Source: a virus. Taken from it: DNA of 58,940 nt. Every line of letters begins with the position of its first letter. The first letter of the stretch is position 1. Shown piece by piece: positions 10,111-56,086 of this stretch. Under the pieces are notes generated by a model. The model was not told the DNA's origin and made no database searches. It worked only from the letters and a program-made list of their open reading frames with translations. Location: positions 1-58,940 of the IMG/VR virus record IMGVR_UViG_3300031687_000012; one strand, 5' to 3'. A program made the translations under genes and the position numbers.

Positions 10111-10118
10111 ACTAAATA
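10111..10118 (+). promoter_or_regulatory. Late promoter box ACTAAATA, leaderless spacing
   Basis: ACTAAATA ends 5 bases before the ATG at 10124. It is a variant of the T4 late -10 box TATAAATA. With T4 geometry (box at -13 to -6) transcription would begin on the A of the start codon. Confidence 0.5.
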
Positions 10119-10123
10119 GTAAT

Positions 10124-10456
10124 ATGGCTATACTCGCAAATTTATTCATTGACCAAGGAACAGACTTCACTATTGTAGTCGATGTTTCAGATGCAACAGG
10201 AGAGATTTTAAATCTTTCAGGTTATGTTTCTGCTGGTCAAATTAGAAAGACTTACGGTTCTTCAACCGTTTCAGCGACATTCACTACTACCAATGCAAAC
10301 GCTACAGGTAAAGTAACCATGTCTTTGACTGATACTCAAACTTCAGCATTAGAATCTGGAAGATATGTTTATGATATGAACATAACCAGTGCTAGTGGTG
10401 TAACTACAAGAGTTGTCGAGGGCCAAGCAATCATAACACCAGGAGTGACAAGATAA
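10124..10456 (+). CDS. Small beta-sandwich structural protein of the fibre region
   Basis: 110 residues beginning MAILANLFIDQGTDFTIVVD. The pattern, a short strand, then 'G.D', then LNLSGYVSAGQIRKTYGSS, then ESGRYVYDMNI, resembles the N-terminal domain of baseplate upper proteins (BppU-like) and related proteins of marine T4-like phages. That match is from memory. It probably acts as an adaptor that joins fibres to the baseplate. It is preceded by a late-promoter variant at leaderless spacing, and its stop overlaps the next ATG by one base (TAATG), so the two are likely translated together. Confidence 0.65.
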   Translation: MAILANLFIDQGTDFTIVVDVSDATGEILNLSGYVSAGQIRKTYGSSTVSATFTTTNANATGKVTMSLTDTQTSALESGRYVYDMNITSASGVTTRVVEGQAIITPGVTR

Positions 10457-10695
10457 TGGCAATCAAGGGAGTCGTATCTAGAGTCGCAACTATAGGTGGT
10501 GTATTGTCCAATACAACAAATTTAAGAGCAAAACAGGTGACTGTTGGTGCTCAAGGTAACAATGACATTTCTGCCAAGTCAATCAATGAACTATCAGATG
10601 TAAATGCAACCGAAACTGATAATGGTCTTCTCTCATATGACCTATCGTCAGATAAGTGGACAACTACTACTACTATAGACGGCGGAACATTTTAG
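10456..10695 (+). CDS. Short fibre-type protein ending in IDGGTF
   Basis: 79 residues: a short beta-prone N-terminus (MAIKGVVSRVATIGGVLSNT), a middle with INELSDVNATETDNGLLSYD, and the C-terminal IDGGTF. The same ending closes the 10841-12568 protein, and IDGGTI closes the 14852-15070 protein. The middle motif (LSDVN followed by DGLLSYD..SDKW) is common in fibre proteins of marine myoviruses. It is translationally coupled to the upstream gene. It may be a small fibre subunit or cap; no enzyme features are seen. Confidence 0.65.
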   Translation: MAIKGVVSRVATIGGVLSNTTNLRAKQVTVGAQGNNDISAKSINELSDVNATETDNGLLSYDLSSDKWTTTTTIDGGTF

Positions 10696-10698
10696 TTT

Positions 10699-10706
10699 AC
10701 TAAATA
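10699..10706 (+). promoter_or_regulatory. Candidate late promoter ACTAAATA upstream of structured leader
   Basis: ACTAAATA lies just after the stop of the 79-residue gene. Transcription would start near 10712 and give a leader of about 130 nt before the ATG at 10841. The box is the same variant as at 10111. Confidence 0.4.
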
Positions 10707-10711
10707 ATAGT

Positions 10712-10840
10712 AACAAATCAAGGATACCGACCAGTGAAGGTATCGACCCACATTGTGAGTGGACTGAATTTATATTATGTAATCACGACTCAGGAGTGCT
10801 GAGTCAAAACAATTAATTTAATTTTTATAGGAAAATAAAA
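10712..10840 (+). promoter_or_regulatory. Structured 5' leader with three hairpins
   Basis: This non-coding gap contains three successive stem-loops. The first pairs GATACC (10723-10728) with GGTATC (10739-10744). The second pairs CCAC (10748-10751) with GTGG (10759-10762). The third pairs GACTCAG (10787-10793) with CTGAGTC (10799-10805). An AT-rich stretch and a weak AGGA ribosome site follow before the ATG at 10841. No terminator T-run follows any stem. It may stabilise or regulate the fibre mRNA; it matches no riboswitch class I can name. Confidence 0.45.
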
Positions 10841-12568
10841 ATGGCAACAGTAATTCAAATCAAAAGAAGTACAGGTTCCGCGGCTCCTTCAACTAGTAAT
10901 CTAAGTGAAGGTGAAATGGCGTATGTACAAGATAGAAGTAATTCTGGCGCATCTGCTAAACTATTCATCGAGTCAGTCGATGCCAGTAATAATGCAGCTA
11001 TCCACTCAGTGGGTGGTAAGTATTATACTGATATCGTTGACGGAACTTCAGCAACACCTGCTAACTTAAAAGTTGGTAATGGTTCTACTGCTGGTGCAAC
11101 TTTACAAATCATGGAAGACTCCGATAACGGAACAAACTTCGTTGGTCTTAAAGCTGCAGATGCTCTTGGAGCATCAGTAACTTTCACACTACCTAGTGCT
11201 GATGGTTCAAATGGACAAGTTATAGGAACAGATGGTTCAGGAAGTCTTTCTTTCGTATCAACAACTTCAACCCTTGCTGGTGGTAGTGATGTAAGCATCA
11301 CATCTGCTGCTGATGGAGCGATGTTATTATATGATACAGGAACATCAAAATGGATCGATAATGTAATGTCTGGAGACGCCACTATGGCTGACACAGGTGT
11401 TCTAACTATTGGATCCCAAAAAGTCCTCAACTCTATGTTGGCTGACGATGCAGTTGGAGCAGATGAATTAGCTTCAAACGCAGTCGTAACGGCATCTATC
11501 GTTGACGCAAACGTAACAACTGCAAAAATCGCTGACGATGCTGTAGATGCTGATAAATTAGCATCAAGTGCCGTAGTATTCGCTTCATTAGCGGGTGCAT
11601 TGGTTCAGGCATCTGGTGAAGCTTTCGCAGATAACGACACAACTTTAATGACTTCAGCTGCTATTCAGGACAAAATCCAAGCATTAGCAACTACAGAAGA
11701 CTTAGACCTTGCAGGTGATAGTGGAACTGGTGCAGTCGATTTAGACTCTCAGTCACTAACAGTCTCTGGTACAGCAAACGAAGTTGAAACAAGTGTTAGT
11801 GGAACGACTATAACAGTCGGTTTACCAAACAATGTAACAGTCGCTAACAACTTAACAGTTTCAGGAAACTTAATATCAGACGATATTACAACTGCAACTT
11901 TAACAACATCTGGTAACTTAACAGTCACAGGAAACTTGGCAGTTAATGGTACTACAACAACAGTAAACTCTTCAACAGTAAATATCGCAGACCCAGTTTT
12001 CGAAATTGGTTCAGATAGTTCAGACGATAACCTAGACAGAGGTATCAAATTTAAGTACAACTCCGGTGGTGCTAAGATTGGTTTCTTTGGTATGGATGAT
12101 ACAGATGGTTCTTTTGTTGCTCTAGAAAGTGCAACAGATAGTTCATCTACATTCTCTGGTACTGCAATGGCTGGTAAATTCGGAAACTTAACTATTGCTA
12201 ACGCAACAATGAGTGGAAGTATTAACAGTTATGCAGGTACTGCTCCTACAGATGGTCAAATCCTAATTGGTGACACATCTTCAGGTTTAATGGACAAAGC
12301 TACTCTTACTGCTGGTGACGGAATCGATATCACTAATGGTGCAGGTTCTATATCAATCAGTGCTGAACAGTCAACTGCATCTAATTTAGGTGTTGTTATT
12401 GTCGCTGCTGGTGAAGGTATGGACGTTGCTTATAGTGGTGGAACTGCTACGATTACTGGAGAAGATGCAACAGTATCTAACAAAGGTATCGCTAGTTTTG
12501 CTACAGCAAACTTTACTGTAACAAGTGGTGCAGTGGCTATCACTGCTATTGACGGTGGAACATTCTAA
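10841..12568 (+). CDS. Tail fibre-like protein with Mtd-type N-terminus
   Basis: 575 residues. The start (MATVIQIKRSTGSAAPSTSN, then LSEGEMAY) matches the pattern of the small N-terminal domain of major tropism determinant-like fibre proteins (R-S/G-T...P...L..GE.A). A long Thr/Ser/Gly/Asn-rich shaft follows, with NLTVSGNL and NLTVTGNL motifs and a segment FEIGSDSSDDNLDRGIKFKY, which is widespread in marine phage fibres. The C-terminus is IDGGTF. It lies behind the structured leader. The role is virion structural, probably fibre; the host receptor cannot be inferred. Confidence 0.78.
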   Translation: MATVIQIKRSTGSAAPSTSNLSEGEMAYVQDRSNSGASAKLFIESVDASNNAAIHSVGGKYYTDIVDGTSATPANLKVGNGSTAGATLQIMEDSDNGTNFVGLKAADALGASVTFTLPSADGSNGQVIGTDGSGSLSFVSTTSTLAGGSDVSITSAADGAMLLYDTGTSKWIDNVMSGDATMADTGVLTIGSQKVLNSMLADDAVGADELASNAVVTASIVDANVTTAKIADDAVDADKLASSAVVFASLAGALVQASGEAFADNDTTLMTSAAIQDKIQALATTEDLDLAGDSGTGAVDLDSQSLTVSGTANEVETSVSGTTITVGLPNNVTVANNLTVSGNLISDDITTATLTTSGNLTVTGNLAVNGTTTTVNSSTVNIADPVFEIGSDSSDDNLDRGIKFKYNSGGAKIGFFGMDDTDGSFVALESATDSSSTFSGTAMAGKFGNLTIANATMSGSINSYAGTAPTDGQILIGDTSSGLMDKATLTAGDGIDITNGAGSISISAEQSTASNLGVVIVAAGEGMDVAYSGGTATITGEDATVSNKGIASFATANFTVTSGAVAITAIDGGTF

Positions 12569-12609
12569 GGAAACTGAGAATATTTTAATTTAATCAATAG
12601 GAGATAGAC

Positions 12610-13434
12610 ATGGCAACAGTTATACAGTTTAAAAGAAGTTCTACTCAGAACGCAGTTCCGACTACAGGCAATTTAGCCTTAGGGGAACTGGCTGTCAATA
12701 CTTATCACGGTAGATTTTATACCGAGAAGAATGATGGTTCCGCTGCTGTTGTAGAGATTGGGTCTAACCCAAAAACTCTACAAATTAATGACGCTATAAC
12801 ATTTCCAACCAGTGATGGTTCAAATGGACAAGTTCTTACAACCAATGGTTCAGGAACAGTTTCATTTGAAACCTTAGGTGGTTCAGGTGTTTCAATTTAC
12901 AAATACACCGTTTCGGGTAACCAAACTGTATTTACAGGTAACGATGATGACAGTAATGCATTATCTTACACTGTAGGTTCAGAACAGGTATTCTTAAATG
13001 GTGTTAAGTTGATTGATGGTGGTGCAGATTATACTGCAACAAACACAACGACTATTACGCTGGCGGAAACTGCAATTGCAGGTGATACAGTAGAAGTAGT
13101 AGCAGTCACGGCTGCTAATTTAGTACAAGGATTCTATACAAATAGTGTCTTTAGTGCAACTACTGCTAACCAAGTATTATCAAGTAATGCAGTTACGAAT
13201 AAGGGTATTAAATATGTAATTACTGCCACTCATGCGAGTGCAGGAACACATTCAGCCGAAGTATTATTAATCAATGATGGATCCAGTGCATATTTCGTCC
13301 AATATGGCGATATATTCAGTGCTGCTTCATTATTTTCGTTGACTGCTGATGTTAATTCAGGAAACATGAGACTCTTATGTACACCTGCTAACACCAACAC
13401 AACGGTTAATACTTTCCAAATAAGACAATCATAG
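12610..13434 (+). CDS. Tail fibre-like protein, Mtd-type N-terminus, shared C-terminal domain
   Basis: 274 residues. The N-terminus (MATVIQFKRSSTQNAVPTTG, NLALGELAVNT) parallels the previous gene. The middle has SDGSNGQVLTTNGSGTVSFE, a common fibre linker, then a beta domain with VFLNGVKLIDGGADYT. The C-terminal 90 residues (KGIKYVITATHASAGTHSAE through MRLLCTPANTNTTVNTFQIR) are homologous by eye to the whole of the next protein and to the C-terminus of the 13934 protein. A GGAG ribosome site (ATAGGAGATAG) precedes the ATG. Likely a fibre tip or receptor-binding subunit by inference. Confidence 0.78.
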   Translation: MATVIQFKRSSTQNAVPTTGNLALGELAVNTYHGRFYTEKNDGSAAVVEIGSNPKTLQINDAITFPTSDGSNGQVLTTNGSGTVSFETLGGSGVSIYKYTVSGNQTVFTGNDDDSNALSYTVGSEQVFLNGVKLIDGGADYTATNTTTITLAETAIAGDTVEVVAVTAANLVQGFYTNSVFSATTANQVLSSNAVTNKGIKYVITATHASAGTHSAEVLLINDGSSAYFVQYGDIFSAASLFSLTADVNSGNMRLLCTPANTNTTVNTFQIRQS

Positions 13435-13875: not shown

Positions 13876-13901
13876 AAAGGGGACTTTTAGTCCCCTTTTT
13901 T
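13876..13901 (+). terminator. Rho-independent terminator after fibre genes
   Basis: Stem GGGGAC (13879-13884), loop TTTTA, stem GTCCCC (13890-13895), then six T. Flanking AAA and TTT extend the pairing. It lies between the 136-residue gene and the next late promoter. Confidence 0.9.
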
Positions 13902-13920: not shown

Positions 13921-13928
13921 CATAAATA
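13921..13928 (+). promoter_or_regulatory. Late promoter CATAAATA, leaderless spacing
   Basis: CATAAATA ends exactly 5 bases before the ATG at 13934, directly after a terminator. No Shine-Dalgarno sequence lies between. Predicted transcription start is the A of the start codon. Confidence 0.65.
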
Positions 13929-14851: not shown

Positions 14852-15070
14852 ATGGCAACAACACAAACATTTGTAATCGAGTATGGGTTATCAGTTGGGT
14901 CATCAGAAGTTATCAATTCGAGTGGAAAAATCGCCGCAGGCGCTATGACCAACATTGATACCGATGATATCGCTGAGGGTTCATCTTCACTTTACTTTAC
15001 TTCAGGAAGATTCAATAGTTCTTTTGATACAAGACTATCTAATGCCACTATAGATGGAGGCACTATCTAA
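14852..15070 (+). CDS. Short fibre protein ending in IDGGTI
   Basis: 72 residues. The N-terminus (TFVIEYGLSVGSSEVINSSG) is paralogous to the start of the next gene (NFIIKNGLTVGTTEVITSAG). The centre has IAEGSSSLYFTSGRF, matching repeated EITEGS..LYFTN.R motifs in that protein. It ends IDGGTI and its stop overlaps the next ATG by one base. It looks like an N-terminal attachment module standing alone, either a cut-down fibre or a small subunit. Behind a perfect late promoter and a good ribosome site. Confidence 0.7.
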   Translation: MATTQTFVIEYGLSVGSSEVINSSGKIAAGAMTNIDTDDIAEGSSSLYFTSGRFNSSFDTRLSNATIDGGTI

Positions 15071-22625: not shown

Positions 22626-23177
22626 ATGAATATGTTAATTTATTGTGAGAATGGTCATCTTACTATCAGAAAACCAAATGGCCTAGAATGGAGACATGAG
22701 AATGTCGACAAACCAGAATTGGGATTTGACTATGATGTTTTAATCTATGATGATATCGAAGTTAAGATTATGGAGTGGAAAGACGATGTTCAGTTTGATG
22801 ACCAAGTTAAACTTTCACTTACAGATGTAGAGTCAGATGCAATTGAGAATTACATTGAGAATTCTACACCACCTAATGATGTAACATTAGCAAATCAATA
22901 CAGTCAACAAATCAATGATGTTTGTAGAGAGTATACAGAACAACAAATGAATTCTTATGGATTCGAAAGTTTAGTAGATACTATGGCAGCTGCGAGAGAT
23001 GGTTCAAATCATCCTTTAAGGTCAGATGCAAGACGAGCATTAGAATACTATGATGTAATGTGGAATATTTACATCAATGTAATGAATGAAGTCAAGGCAA
23101 CTAGAGAAGATTTATTACCAAATGTTGATGACTTCATTAATAGATTTCCTCAACCGCAACAAGCATTGATTGAATAG
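22626..23177 (+). CDS. Conserved-looking protein of unknown function
   Basis: 183 residues. The N-terminus (MNMLIYCENGHLTIRKPNG, then DYDVLIYDDIEVKIMEWKDD) looks like a small beta domain. The C-terminal half is helical with MAAARDGSNHPLRSDARRAL followed by YYDVMWNIYINVMNEV. The latter recalls the helical segment of tail-fibre assembly or DUF4376-type proteins, weak evidence from memory. The gene starts at ATG 22626 behind TATGGAG. It lies between the glycosyltransferase and the first 2OG oxygenase. A chaperone for the fibre proteins upstream would fit but is unproven. Confidence 0.6.
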   Translation: MNMLIYCENGHLTIRKPNGLEWRHENVDKPELGFDYDVLIYDDIEVKIMEWKDDVQFDDQVKLSLTDVESDAIENYIENSTPPNDVTLANQYSQQINDVCREYTEQQMNSYGFESLVDTMAAARDGSNHPLRSDARRALEYYDVMWNIYINVMNEVKATREDLLPNVDDFINRFPQPQQALIE

Positions 23178-23181
23178 TAGT

Positions 23182-23925
23182 ATGTCTAAGTTTGACTTAG
23201 AAATAGTTGAGATAGATAAACCCTTTGCTATCCAAGAGATGCCTTTGGGAAATAAAATCTATGTGATTGATGACTATCTTGAACCAGCGATACATCGTTG
23301 GGTTCATAAAACTATTAGTCAAGGACCTAGATGGTCTAAATCGAATCAAGTAAACGCACAACATCCTACAGGTTTACCGCACCACTCCCTTTGGGGAGCA
23401 TCTTTCTTTAAGACAGATAATAATGGCGCACCGATGATGGAAAAGGGCGAAAATGATTGGACAACTGAGTCCGCTAGATGGTTTAATAGAAGAATATGTA
23501 CAGATTTTCAATTCAAATGGAAAAGATTTCAATACATGGGCACCAATTCTCAGACTCATGGTCAACACGGAACAACTCACTCAGATTGTGCAGCTGAAGA
23601 TGATTGGAACATATCGTTTCTATATTATTACAACACATTCTGGAATCCTGCATGGGGTGGTGATTTAAGATTCTATGAACCCGATGTTTATCAAGCAGGT
23701 TTAGACGGTAGAGATGAACACATAGAAAAACATTCAATAGGCAGTGTCGAGTTTAAACCAAACAGACTATTGATGTTTGACGGAAGAATACCTCATGGTG
23801 CAGATGCACCAAATTCTAGGGCCAGATACGCAGACAGATGTTCTATAGTACTTAGAGGTGACGAAATAGAACTTATTGAAAAGGAAGAATTATATAATGC
23901 CAACGATAGATTTCACTACATTTAA
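23182..23925 (+). CDS. 2-oxoglutarate/Fe(II)-dependent oxygenase (prolyl-hydroxylase type)
   Basis: 247 residues from the ATG at 23182, preferred over a TTG four codons upstream that overlaps the previous stop. The double-stranded beta-helix motif is visible: HSD (His133, Asp135), the strand WNISFLYYYN, GGDLRFYEP, distal His205 (RIPHGA), and an Arg such as Arg219 for 2-oxoglutarate. These enzymes use O2, Fe(II) and 2-oxoglutarate to hydroxylate a substrate side chain or small molecule. Its substrate is unknown. The next gene starts inside its 3' end. It belongs to the cluster of modifying enzymes after the repeat proteins. Confidence 0.8.
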   Translation: MSKFDLEIVEIDKPFAIQEMPLGNKIYVIDDYLEPAIHRWVHKTISQGPRWSKSNQVNAQHPTGLPHHSLWGASFFKTDNNGAPMMEKGENDWTTESARWFNRRICTDFQFKWKRFQYMGTNSQTHGQHGTTHSDCAAEDDWNISFLYYYNTFWNPAWGGDLRFYEPDVYQAGLDGRDEHIEKHSIGSVEFKPNRLLMFDGRIPHGADAPNSRARYADRCSIVLRGDEIELIEKEELYNANDRFHYI

Positions 23926-46688: not shown

Positions 46689-47324
46689 ATGTATCAATTA
46701 ATAGAAGAAGCATCAAAAGTACTAAGAACTCCACCTCCGGAGTTTGACTTTGAAAATCCACCAGAAGACCCAATTGAAATTGCCAAGAACATGGCAGAGG
46801 CAATGGACAAATTTGGAGGTTTAGGACTCTCATGTAATCAAGTTGGATTACCGTATAGAATGTTTGTTATGAGAACAATGCATGAAGGCGATAAAGAATC
46901 AAAAGTCATCGCATACTATAATCCTAAGTTGACACGAGTGTCACAAGATACAGACTTAATGAAAGAGGGGTGTTTATCATTCCCAGACCTATTCTTAATG
47001 ATTAAAAGGTCTAAAATGATAGAATTCACATATCAAGATGAAACCGGTGAAGAGAAGAGTGCAATGCTAGAAGGCGTTGGTGCAAGATGTGTTCAACATG
47101 AGATTGACCACTTGAATGGAATCTTATTTTTACAAAGGGCGTCAAGATTAAAACTTGAGAGAGCTCAAAAGGCTCGAGTAAAAGAAAAAAAGAAAAGAAT
47201 AGAATATGAAAGAAGAATCGCACTTGCAAAATACTTCCAAGAGTTGCAGTCCTCCAAGAATGCTGAAATATCTAATGATGCCGGAGAAGTGTCAACAGAT
47301 AATAGAGTTTCACAAGAGTCATAG
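46689..47324 (+). CDS. def: Peptide deformylase
   Basis: 211 residues. Motif 1 GLGLSCNQ (44-51), motif 2 EGCLS (93-97, metal Cys96) and motif 3 HEIDH (137-141) are complete, so the enzyme should remove formyl groups from nascent proteins. Motif 1 has Ser-Cys where most have Ala-Ala, a common phage-like variation. A basic helical extension of about 60 residues follows the catalytic domain (KARVKEKKKRIEYERRIALA), absent from short phage deformylases. Phage deformylases are known in marine phages and may help the host process many new proteins. Late-promoter box at leaderless spacing. Confidence 0.93.
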   Translation: MYQLIEEASKVLRTPPPEFDFENPPEDPIEIAKNMAEAMDKFGGLGLSCNQVGLPYRMFVMRTMHEGDKESKVIAYYNPKLTRVSQDTDLMKEGCLSFPDLFLMIKRSKMIEFTYQDETGEEKSAMLEGVGARCVQHEIDHLNGILFLQRASRLKLERAQKARVKEKKKRIEYERRIALAKYFQELQSSKNAEISNDAGEVSTDNRVSQES

Positions 47325-55683: not shown

Positions 55684-56086
55684 CTTATTAGAATCAGTAA
55701 AAGACTTAGTAGAAATAACATTTCCTGAAAAGGATGACTTCTTAAAGATAAGAGAAACTCTATCTAGAATAGGTGTAGCGTCTCGAAAAGAAAAGGAACT
55801 CTTTCAGTCATGTCATATACTACACAAAAGGGGCAAGTACTACATTGTCCACTTCAAAGAGTTATTCAAACTCGATGGCAAACAAACAAACTTTGACGAA
55901 TCAGATGTCGCTAGACGAAACACTATTGTCGATTTATTGAGACAATGGAACCTTGTCAAGGTACTTGACTCAAAGAAAATAGAAGAGCCTAGAGCGCCAC
56001 TCTCTCAGATTAAGGTTATACCTTATAAAGAAAAGAGTCAGTGGAAACTCACACAAAAATACTCAATAGGCACTAACATAAACTAA
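55676..56086 (+). CDS. regA: Translational repressor RegA
   Basis: 136 residues from ATG 55676 (MDDLLESVKDLVEITFPEKD), overlapping the gp62 stop. FLKIRETLSRIGVASRKEKE, LFQSCHILHKRGKYYIVHFK and ELFKLDGKQTNFDESDVARR, with NTIVDLLRQWNLVKVL, are conserved RegA segments. It binds the start regions of many early mRNAs, including gp44, gp45 and its own, and blocks translation. The order gp45-gp44-gp62-regA is that of T4. Slightly longer than T4 RegA (122). Confidence 0.93.
   Translation: MDDLLESVKDLVEITFPEKDDFLKIRETLSRIGVASRKEKELFQSCHILHKRGKYYIVHFKELFKLDGKQTNFDESDVARRNTIVDLLRQWNLVKVLDSKKIEEPRAPLSQIKVIPYKEKSQWKLTQKYSIGTNIN

Follow-up and report, generated by a model that had tools for sequence, protein, structure and literature searches.

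Why should a virus that spaces most of its genes less than 50 bp apart leave 145 nt (10696-10840) between a 79-aa ORF (10456-10695) and the tail-fibre ORF that follows it? The question arises in a 58,940-base virus record, analysed over its whole length and referred to here as the window, in which a sequence-only reading had singled out this gap as unusually long, and as occupied by a late-box variant and three stable hairpins, one of them of 7 bp, that fit no terminator. The gap is indeed long by local standards, since only four of the 20 gaps between listed ORFs from position 19 to 27463 exceed 50 nt (200, 145, 77 and 317 nt, the last of which has a 72-aa ORF inside it). The box and the three hairpins (H1, H2 and H3, from 5' to 3') could all be located within it, the 7-bp stem being that of H3 (Table 1).

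Table 1. Features of the fibre leader and of the transcription unit that it opens, in window coordinates.
Feature	Position	Strand	Remark
T4-type late promoter box ACTAAATA (late-box variant)	10699..10706	+	direct reading
Single-stranded AUCAAG, conserved, at the 5' end	10717..10722	+	last G pairs with C10747
Hairpin H1, 6 bp, 10-nt loop GACCAGUGAA	10723..10744	+	followed by GA bulge 10745-10746
Hairpin H2, 4 bp, 7-nt loop AUUGUGA	10748..10762	+	abuts the closing pair of H1
Conserved UAUUAUG in the H2-H3 linker	10773..10779	+	AUG in no conserved reading frame
Hairpin H3, 7 bp here, 5-nt loop GAGUG	10787..10805	+	
AGGA, probable Shine-Dalgarno of the fibre gene, outside the hairpins	10829..10832	+	direct reading
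Tail-fibre gene, 575 aa, MATVIQIKRSTG...	10841..12568	+	PHROGs structural and tail-fibre families
Intrinsic terminator, 10-bp stem, 3-nt loop, -14.6 kcal/mol, T-run	13876..13901	+	

Genomic setting

By PHROGs, the record carries a T4-type structural module consisting of a 1487-aa ORF, the fibre region, sheath stabiliser, terminase, sheath, portal, scaffold and major head protein; the PHROG of the 1487-aa ORF carries no name, and from its place we take this ORF to be VrlC-like. The best rows for the portal protein are those of Methylophilales phage Melnitz (54.7%) and Pelagibacter phage Mosig (54.1%), and since no matched isolate reaches 60% identity, the window belongs to a group that has no close isolate in the collection searched. 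A DNA-against-DNA search of the phage collection gave no match. The window encodes RegA (PF01818, E 6e-43) at 55706-56071; in record G024 the RegA match is split over two overlapping stretches. PHROGs families also place a peptide deformylase gene (46689-47324) and an endonuclease V gene (23170-23925) in this T4-like phage.

Some short sequences recur around the fibre gene. Near-identical 15-nt ends coding for DGGTF close both the 79-aa ORF (10681-10695) and the fibre gene (12554-12568), and DGGTI stands at the end of a 72-aa ORF (14852-15070); this common C-terminal tag, which flanks leader and fibre, might have a role in assembly or recombination. Positions 12585-12639, which lead up to and enter the second fibre gene (12610-13434), are 78% identical to 10813-10870, and the N-terminal part of the second fibre resembles that of the first (35% over the aligned stretch); the hairpin leader is not copied there.

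Evidence for a conserved fold

Folded by itself, the window sequence is mildly better than chance, with a z-score of -2.3 for 10696-10845 (3 of 200 shuffles as good) and of -1.5 for 10712-10840 (18 of 200). Stability had been claimed too broadly: three hairpins are present, but H2 is marginal, being missing from the minimum-energy fold of the whole leader and present in the centroid. Despite the modest z-scores, a chance fold is ruled out by covariation. The sequence-only reading had proposed that covariation and conservation of the stems be sought among relatives, and when this was done the stems proved to be kept with many compensatory changes. Across 47 distinct leaders, all 726 base-pair cells of the three helices (16 pairs) hold standard pairs, and in 11 of the 16 both sides have changed with pairing kept. 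The covariation score of this alignment, which was fitted to a covariance model and so favours the structure, is 0.589, against a shuffled mean of 0.153 and 0.113 for the best slid version; two coarser measures, both-sided pairs and pair types, were reached by 20 and 13 of 500 shuffles respectively, and the other three measures by none. Two checks are independent of this fit: RNAalifold, applied to 19 leaders of a single H3 type that had simply been aligned with MAFFT, returned exactly these three hairpins with 7 of 15 pairs compensated, and the unaligned sequences hold 16 different H1 stems of 5 or 6 bp among 82 distinct leaders.

Shared ancestry was taken into account with a tree-aware null of our own making (not R-scape itself), in which parsimony substitutions on a FastTree tree were re-dealt over columns in 60 replicates. 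In the ranking of 4278 column pairs the first eight places all go to proposed pairs, whose scores no null score reaches, and a ninth stands at E 0.017, so that 9 of the 16 pairs have E <= 0.017; the remaining seven have too little variation, or no support alone. Compensatory changes beyond phylogenetic expectation, as in a conserved structured RNA, are thus present. Double changes on the same branch were counted 6 (columns 13-33), 9 (15-31) and 8 (16-30) times in H1, 7 times at the third pair of H2, and up to 5 times in H3. This third pair is A-U, U-A or C-G, the other three pairs of H2 being constant in the 47 distinct leaders, while each of the five pairs modelled in H3 shows both-sided changes. 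An additional covarying pair, partly non-Watson-Crick, lies within the H3 loop (columns 89-99).

The pair that closes H1 over its GA bulge, G10722-C10747, is never mismatched in 84 distinct leaders, of which 78 have G-C and 6 have U-A. When IMG/VR was scanned for C10747 changed to A with its partner left free, 12 matches were found, nine of them before a fibre start, and all nine carry U at the partner position, although this set includes several near copies and some contigs that were already known; no fibre start is present at the remaining three matches. The scan also brought out C-G as a third type at the variable pair of H2. Among the 420 H1 pairs of the 84 distinct leaders there are eight G-T/T-G wobbles and no A-C. 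Wobbles that read as G-U on the mRNA strand, and never as A-C, indicate that it is the sense strand that folds, as RNA. From these comparisons we regard the leader as almost certainly a structured RNA, with a sense-strand fold that is under selection.

Loops that stay while stems change

In most leaders the loops of all three hairpins carry a (Y)AGUGA-like motif on stems that change. The H1 loop contains [GAT]TGA in 81 of the 82 distinct leaders and GTGA in 71. GTGA is present in the H2 loop of all 82, a count that is partly due to selection because many loci were found through an H2 pattern; the protein-based alignment shows GTGA in all of its rows too. For H3, a motif-blind parser finds AGTG in 65 of 82 loops, against 1.1 expected after shuffling, and this AGTG stands on 14 of 20 different 5' stem sequences. 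Folding alone gives a lower H3 count because another hairpin is sometimes chosen, with GTG in 57 of 82 leaders, and in all three loops in 50. H3 is the least strict of the three, as 17 of the 82 have no AGTG and some loops read ACAA, TTTA or ATATAC. Stems that drift under loops that mostly stay are the signature of a recognised loop, here three in series. At the 5' end, the AUC of AUCAAG is invariant in A1, A2 and A4, and the AAG nearly so.

A search of the window for more single AGUGA hairpins found H1 and two others against a shuffle mean of 7.3, a count below that of the shuffles, and therefore no sign of a wider regulon. By eye, CsrA-like GGA loops are seen in the window's H3 subtype only.

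The leader accompanies the fibre gene

Relatives were gathered from IMG/VR with the 79-aa ORF (38 loci) and with the fibre N-terminus (the best 80 of at least 574 relatives) as queries. A strict expression fits 77 of the 80 loci from the fibre query, and a covariance model matches all 80 as well as the window; it was built from the window and 18 of these loci, so that those 19 match by construction and the others do not. A more distant second fibre query again gave 80 matches among 80 loci (the best 80 of 505 relatives, many on the same contigs as those of the first query). In a search of 37 records, Mosig and Melnitz included, the model matches all 35 records of the clade, with one true copy in each, and neither of the two isolate genomes. 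Two weak matches in two of the 35 records (E 0.0018 and 0.14) were rejected as extra copies, both being inside open reading frames; the second-best match in the window scores 14.5 bits.

None of the best 80 of at least 580 loci around Mosig's own fibre matches the model, although four of these have less than 80 nt of upstream DNA and are uninformative. Where an upstream ORF was found at the Mosig-like loci (74 of 79, leaving out L311, which is without a start), the upstream gap is only 3-19 nt. It follows that promoter and leader were gained in one clade, or else lost in others. Phages that bear the leader are widespread, as a pattern for the H2 core is found on at least 119 IMG/VR stretches (80 among the matches listed). 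A cellular origin was considered and rejected: exact pattern matches in 84,980 species genomes number 18 and are scattered over unrelated taxa, and by our own arithmetic about 30 are expected by chance.

A fibre start follows the leader within 220 nt in 245 of 246 parsed instances (82 distinct leaders, on contigs that recur), the exception being L128. At nine loci, some of them near copies, genes are inserted after the 79-aa ORF, and in all nine the leader begins 121-130 nt before the fibre gene; the leader thus goes with the fibre gene and not with the upstream gene. Accessory genes between the 79-aa ORF and the leader were noted in L005, L013, L021, L023, L031 and L032 (and near copies), and one type, which starts MDEWSPLREIIVGT, is a candidate amidinotransferase by its looks.

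Promoter, terminator and ribosome site

A TAAATA-type box precedes AUCAAG in 81 of the 82 distinct leaders, at a median distance of 9 nt (IQR 9-11, range 5-34, with three of the 81 having boxes 20-34 nt upstream), and in the 82nd (L069) the DNA begins inside the box. With T4 late-promoter geometry, transcription would start at about 10712, some 12 nt before the beginning of H1. Other late-type boxes, at 10111, 13921, 25478 and 46676, end 5 nt before the start codons at 10124, 13934, 25491 and 46689; with a box so close, T4 geometry would make these mRNAs nearly leaderless, unlike that of the fibre gene.

That the hairpins fit no terminator holds up. H3 is followed by AAAACAAUUAA, with no U-run directly behind it and hence without the combination of G+C-rich hairpin and U-run that defines an intrinsic terminator. 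A consensus terminator scan found no site in the gap and listed no plus-strand terminator-like site from 7.9 to 19.4 kb; the same scan missed the clear terminator at 13876-13901, which probably ends a unit of promoter, leader, fibre, second fibre and 136-aa ORF. The next gene after this terminator has its own late-type box, that at 13921. A TTTATTATGTAA stretch, like the leader's linker, precedes the terminator.

Leader folds show no pairing between any of the three hairpins and the ribosome site, and place AGGA in a weak local hairpin of its own. The predicted unpaired fraction from -18 to +6 of the fibre start is 0.33, the second lowest of 32 window starts (0.26-0.78), and its mean over the 82 leaders is 0.43. 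When the fold is extended by 60 nt of coding sequence, H1 is predicted to form with a mean of 0.57 and H2 with one of 0.29, and H1 is predicted to be almost lost in a few leaders (0.06 in L001, 0.03 in L003). The penalty of H1 with H2 over the best fold has a median of 0.7 kcal/mol for the leader alone (maximum 6.4) and of 1.8 kcal/mol with the coding sequence (maximum 7.0, and above 4 in 13 of 82). We do not take a switch through alternative pairing with the fibre start to be conserved, none having been seen in a non-exhaustive look.

A putative docking leader and its alternatives

The sequence-only reading had suggested a regulatory RNA, an RNase-processing site or a stabiliser. The proposal finds support in general, but a pure RNase site leaves the common loop motif on changing stems unexplained. 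The reading that we prefer, and to which we give roughly even confidence, is that the leader is a cis-acting structured RNA in the 5' UTR of the late tail-fibre mRNA, with repeated loops that may be docking sites for a putative partner. The late fibre mRNA would begin with this leader, whose loops would dock a single RNA-binding partner. This partner, in all likelihood a protein encoded by the phage, would on binding set the translation or lifetime of the message; the timing or amount of fibre made would follow. H2, of 4 bp and energetically marginal, is yet unbroken in 47 of 47 leaders, as expected if a partner stabilises it. A partner-binding leader is favoured over a riboswitch, attenuator or antiterminator by the lack of pairing between hairpins and ribosome site, by the lack of a terminator in the gap, and by the terminator at the end of the unit. 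Against docking, the leaders whose H3 has no AGTG mean that three identical sites are not strictly required, and occlusion of the start codon by the hairpins is not obvious, though its predicted accessibility is low. Spacing is constrained towards both promoter and start codon, which a function at the promoter end would also predict. The poor formation of H1 and H2 predicted for some leaders once coding sequence is added, and the scarcity of further such hairpins in the window, also count against docking.

To judge from sequence comparison, the leader probably helps to control the making of a host-recognition fibre in an uncultured ocean bacterial virus. A bolder view is that the late-mRNA leader with its three (Y)AGUGA hairpins forms a new phage RNA class and serves as operator for a phage protein dedicated to binding it, perhaps the fibre protein or its assembly factor. 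We consider this extension rather unlikely; if true, fibre synthesis would be fed back to assembly, and ocean phages would have an RNA operator devoted to a host-recognition gene. The loop motif is clear and the natural variants number 84 distinct leaders, which makes the search for a putative binding partner directly testable.

The main rival is a passive stabiliser or processing platform at the 5' end, in which the hairpins shield the late fibre mRNA from 5'-end-dependent decay or define a processed end, with no dedicated partner. The placement of H1 just behind the inferred start site, the narrow spread of the distance from box to AUCAAG, and the freedom of the ribosome site from hairpin pairing in leader folds would all suit such a role, which we nonetheless think fairly unlikely. 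It leaves several things without explanation: the common loop motif on changing stems, the invariant AUC, the GA bulge with its covarying closing pair, a weak H2 that is never broken, and the three leaders with boxes 20-34 nt upstream.

A different reading starts from the linker between H2 and H3, which contains WWATG in 73 of the 82 distinct leaders (shuffled mean 19, maximum 31) and resembles both T4 RegA sites and a -10 element. Reading frames from the linker AUG run for 1 to 20 codons and reach the fibre start in 4 of 73 leaders; a leader peptide or other protein-coding leader was rejected on these short frames and on the variable lengths of stems and linker. Phage RegA might instead bind UAUWAUG as a translational operator, with the hairpins holding the site single-stranded. 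UAUUAUGUAA is similar to the consensus aaAAUUGUUAUGUAA obtained by SELEX for T4 RegA, and also to the sites of rIIB and gene 44 (PMC3014915), and PF01818 is found in 10 of the 12 leader-bearing records searched, window counted. As with T4 RegA operators, then, an unstructured A+U-rich stretch with an AUG occurs in a RegA-encoding T4-like phage. However, known RegA sites overlap or stand just 5' of the repressed start codon (PMC3014915), whereas the linker AUG (10777-10779) is not the fibre start codon, lies 64 nt upstream of it and stands among three conserved hairpins. Mosig and Melnitz encode RegA yet are without the leader, 9 of the 82 leaders are without the motif in its WWATG form, and the loops are not explained. 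By analogy with T4 this operator is conceivable, and we judge it quite improbable.

The likeness of the linker to a -10 element raises a further alternative, a nascent-RNA element like the putRNA of phage HK022, in which abutting hairpins would bind the elongating polymerase, perhaps helped by its pausing at the -10-like TATWAT, and would alter how it pauses or terminates. In both cases two side-by-side stem-loops lie near the 5' end of a phage transcript, just behind the promoter, with a -10-like sequence downstream (in HK022, that of the putL construct described in PMC9378689), and the promoter spacing is tight in most leaders. But putRNA consists of two long stem-loops in about 70 nt (PMC9378689), whereas H1 and H2 together span 40 nt with short stems of 6-7 and 4 bp, and the leader also differs in having a third hairpin, which would be left unexplained, and a late rather than an early promoter. 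As to terminators that would have to be read through, none is listed on the plus strand from 7.9 to 19.4 kb by a scan that missed the one at 13876-13901; that one closes the unit, beyond which the next gene has its own box. We hold this alternative to be very doubtful.

A small-molecule riboswitch with ligand-binding loops would agree with the short paired hairpins, conserved loops and compact junction. Yet there is no Rfam match, and an expression platform is not in evidence: the scan found no terminator in the gap, leader folds leave the ribosome site free of the hairpins, and no conserved alternative fold came to light. We hold a riboswitch to be highly improbable. A glutamine riboswitch is reported at a tmRNA gene in Melnitz (PMC9004378), and a pelagimyophage survey with Riboswitch Scanner reported, in the portion available, no riboswitches (PMC7029224). 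Least credible of all is a DNA-level element, such as a hairpin or homology arm aiding exchange of the fibre cassette: the fibre region is a variable host-recognition cluster in pelagimyophages (PMC7029224) and the DGGTF-coding ends (10681 and 12554) flank leader and fibre, but read on the sense strand H1 has eight G-T wobbles and no A-C, and the leader sits between a late box and the gene that it accompanies.

Comparison with known RNA families

Searches against Rfam 15 gave no match at the gathering threshold for the window, and for the loci of seven relatives only two sub-threshold matches, to unrelated families. The best Rfam score at E <= 5 in 10600-10950 is to freshwater-2 RNA (RF02980), at 18.3 bits against a gathering threshold of 49.9 (E 1.5); the likeness is that of a hairpin followed by a ribosome site, and the match covers H3 and the A+U-rich start region. 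In the titles and abstracts of the open literature, a scope outside which most subscription papers and preprints fall, we recognised no description of the leader.

Also comparable are the hairpin operator of gene 43 and the pseudoknot of gene 32 in T4/RB69, which are described as sites of autogenous repression (PMC3014915). These too are structured RNAs in phage mRNA leaders, and are recognised by a phage protein. They differ in that a single hairpin with a UAAC-type loop, or a pseudoknot, precedes a replication gene, whereas here three hairpins with AGUGA-type loops precede a fibre gene. The structured RNAs manA, wcaG and PhotoRC-II, known mostly from marine metagenomes and cyanophages, are associated with metabolic or photosynthesis genes (PMC2864571); the present leader matches no Rfam 15 model and stands before a gene for a tail fibre. 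This points to post-transcriptional control devices, overlooked by annotation, at the structural genes of ocean T4-like phages.
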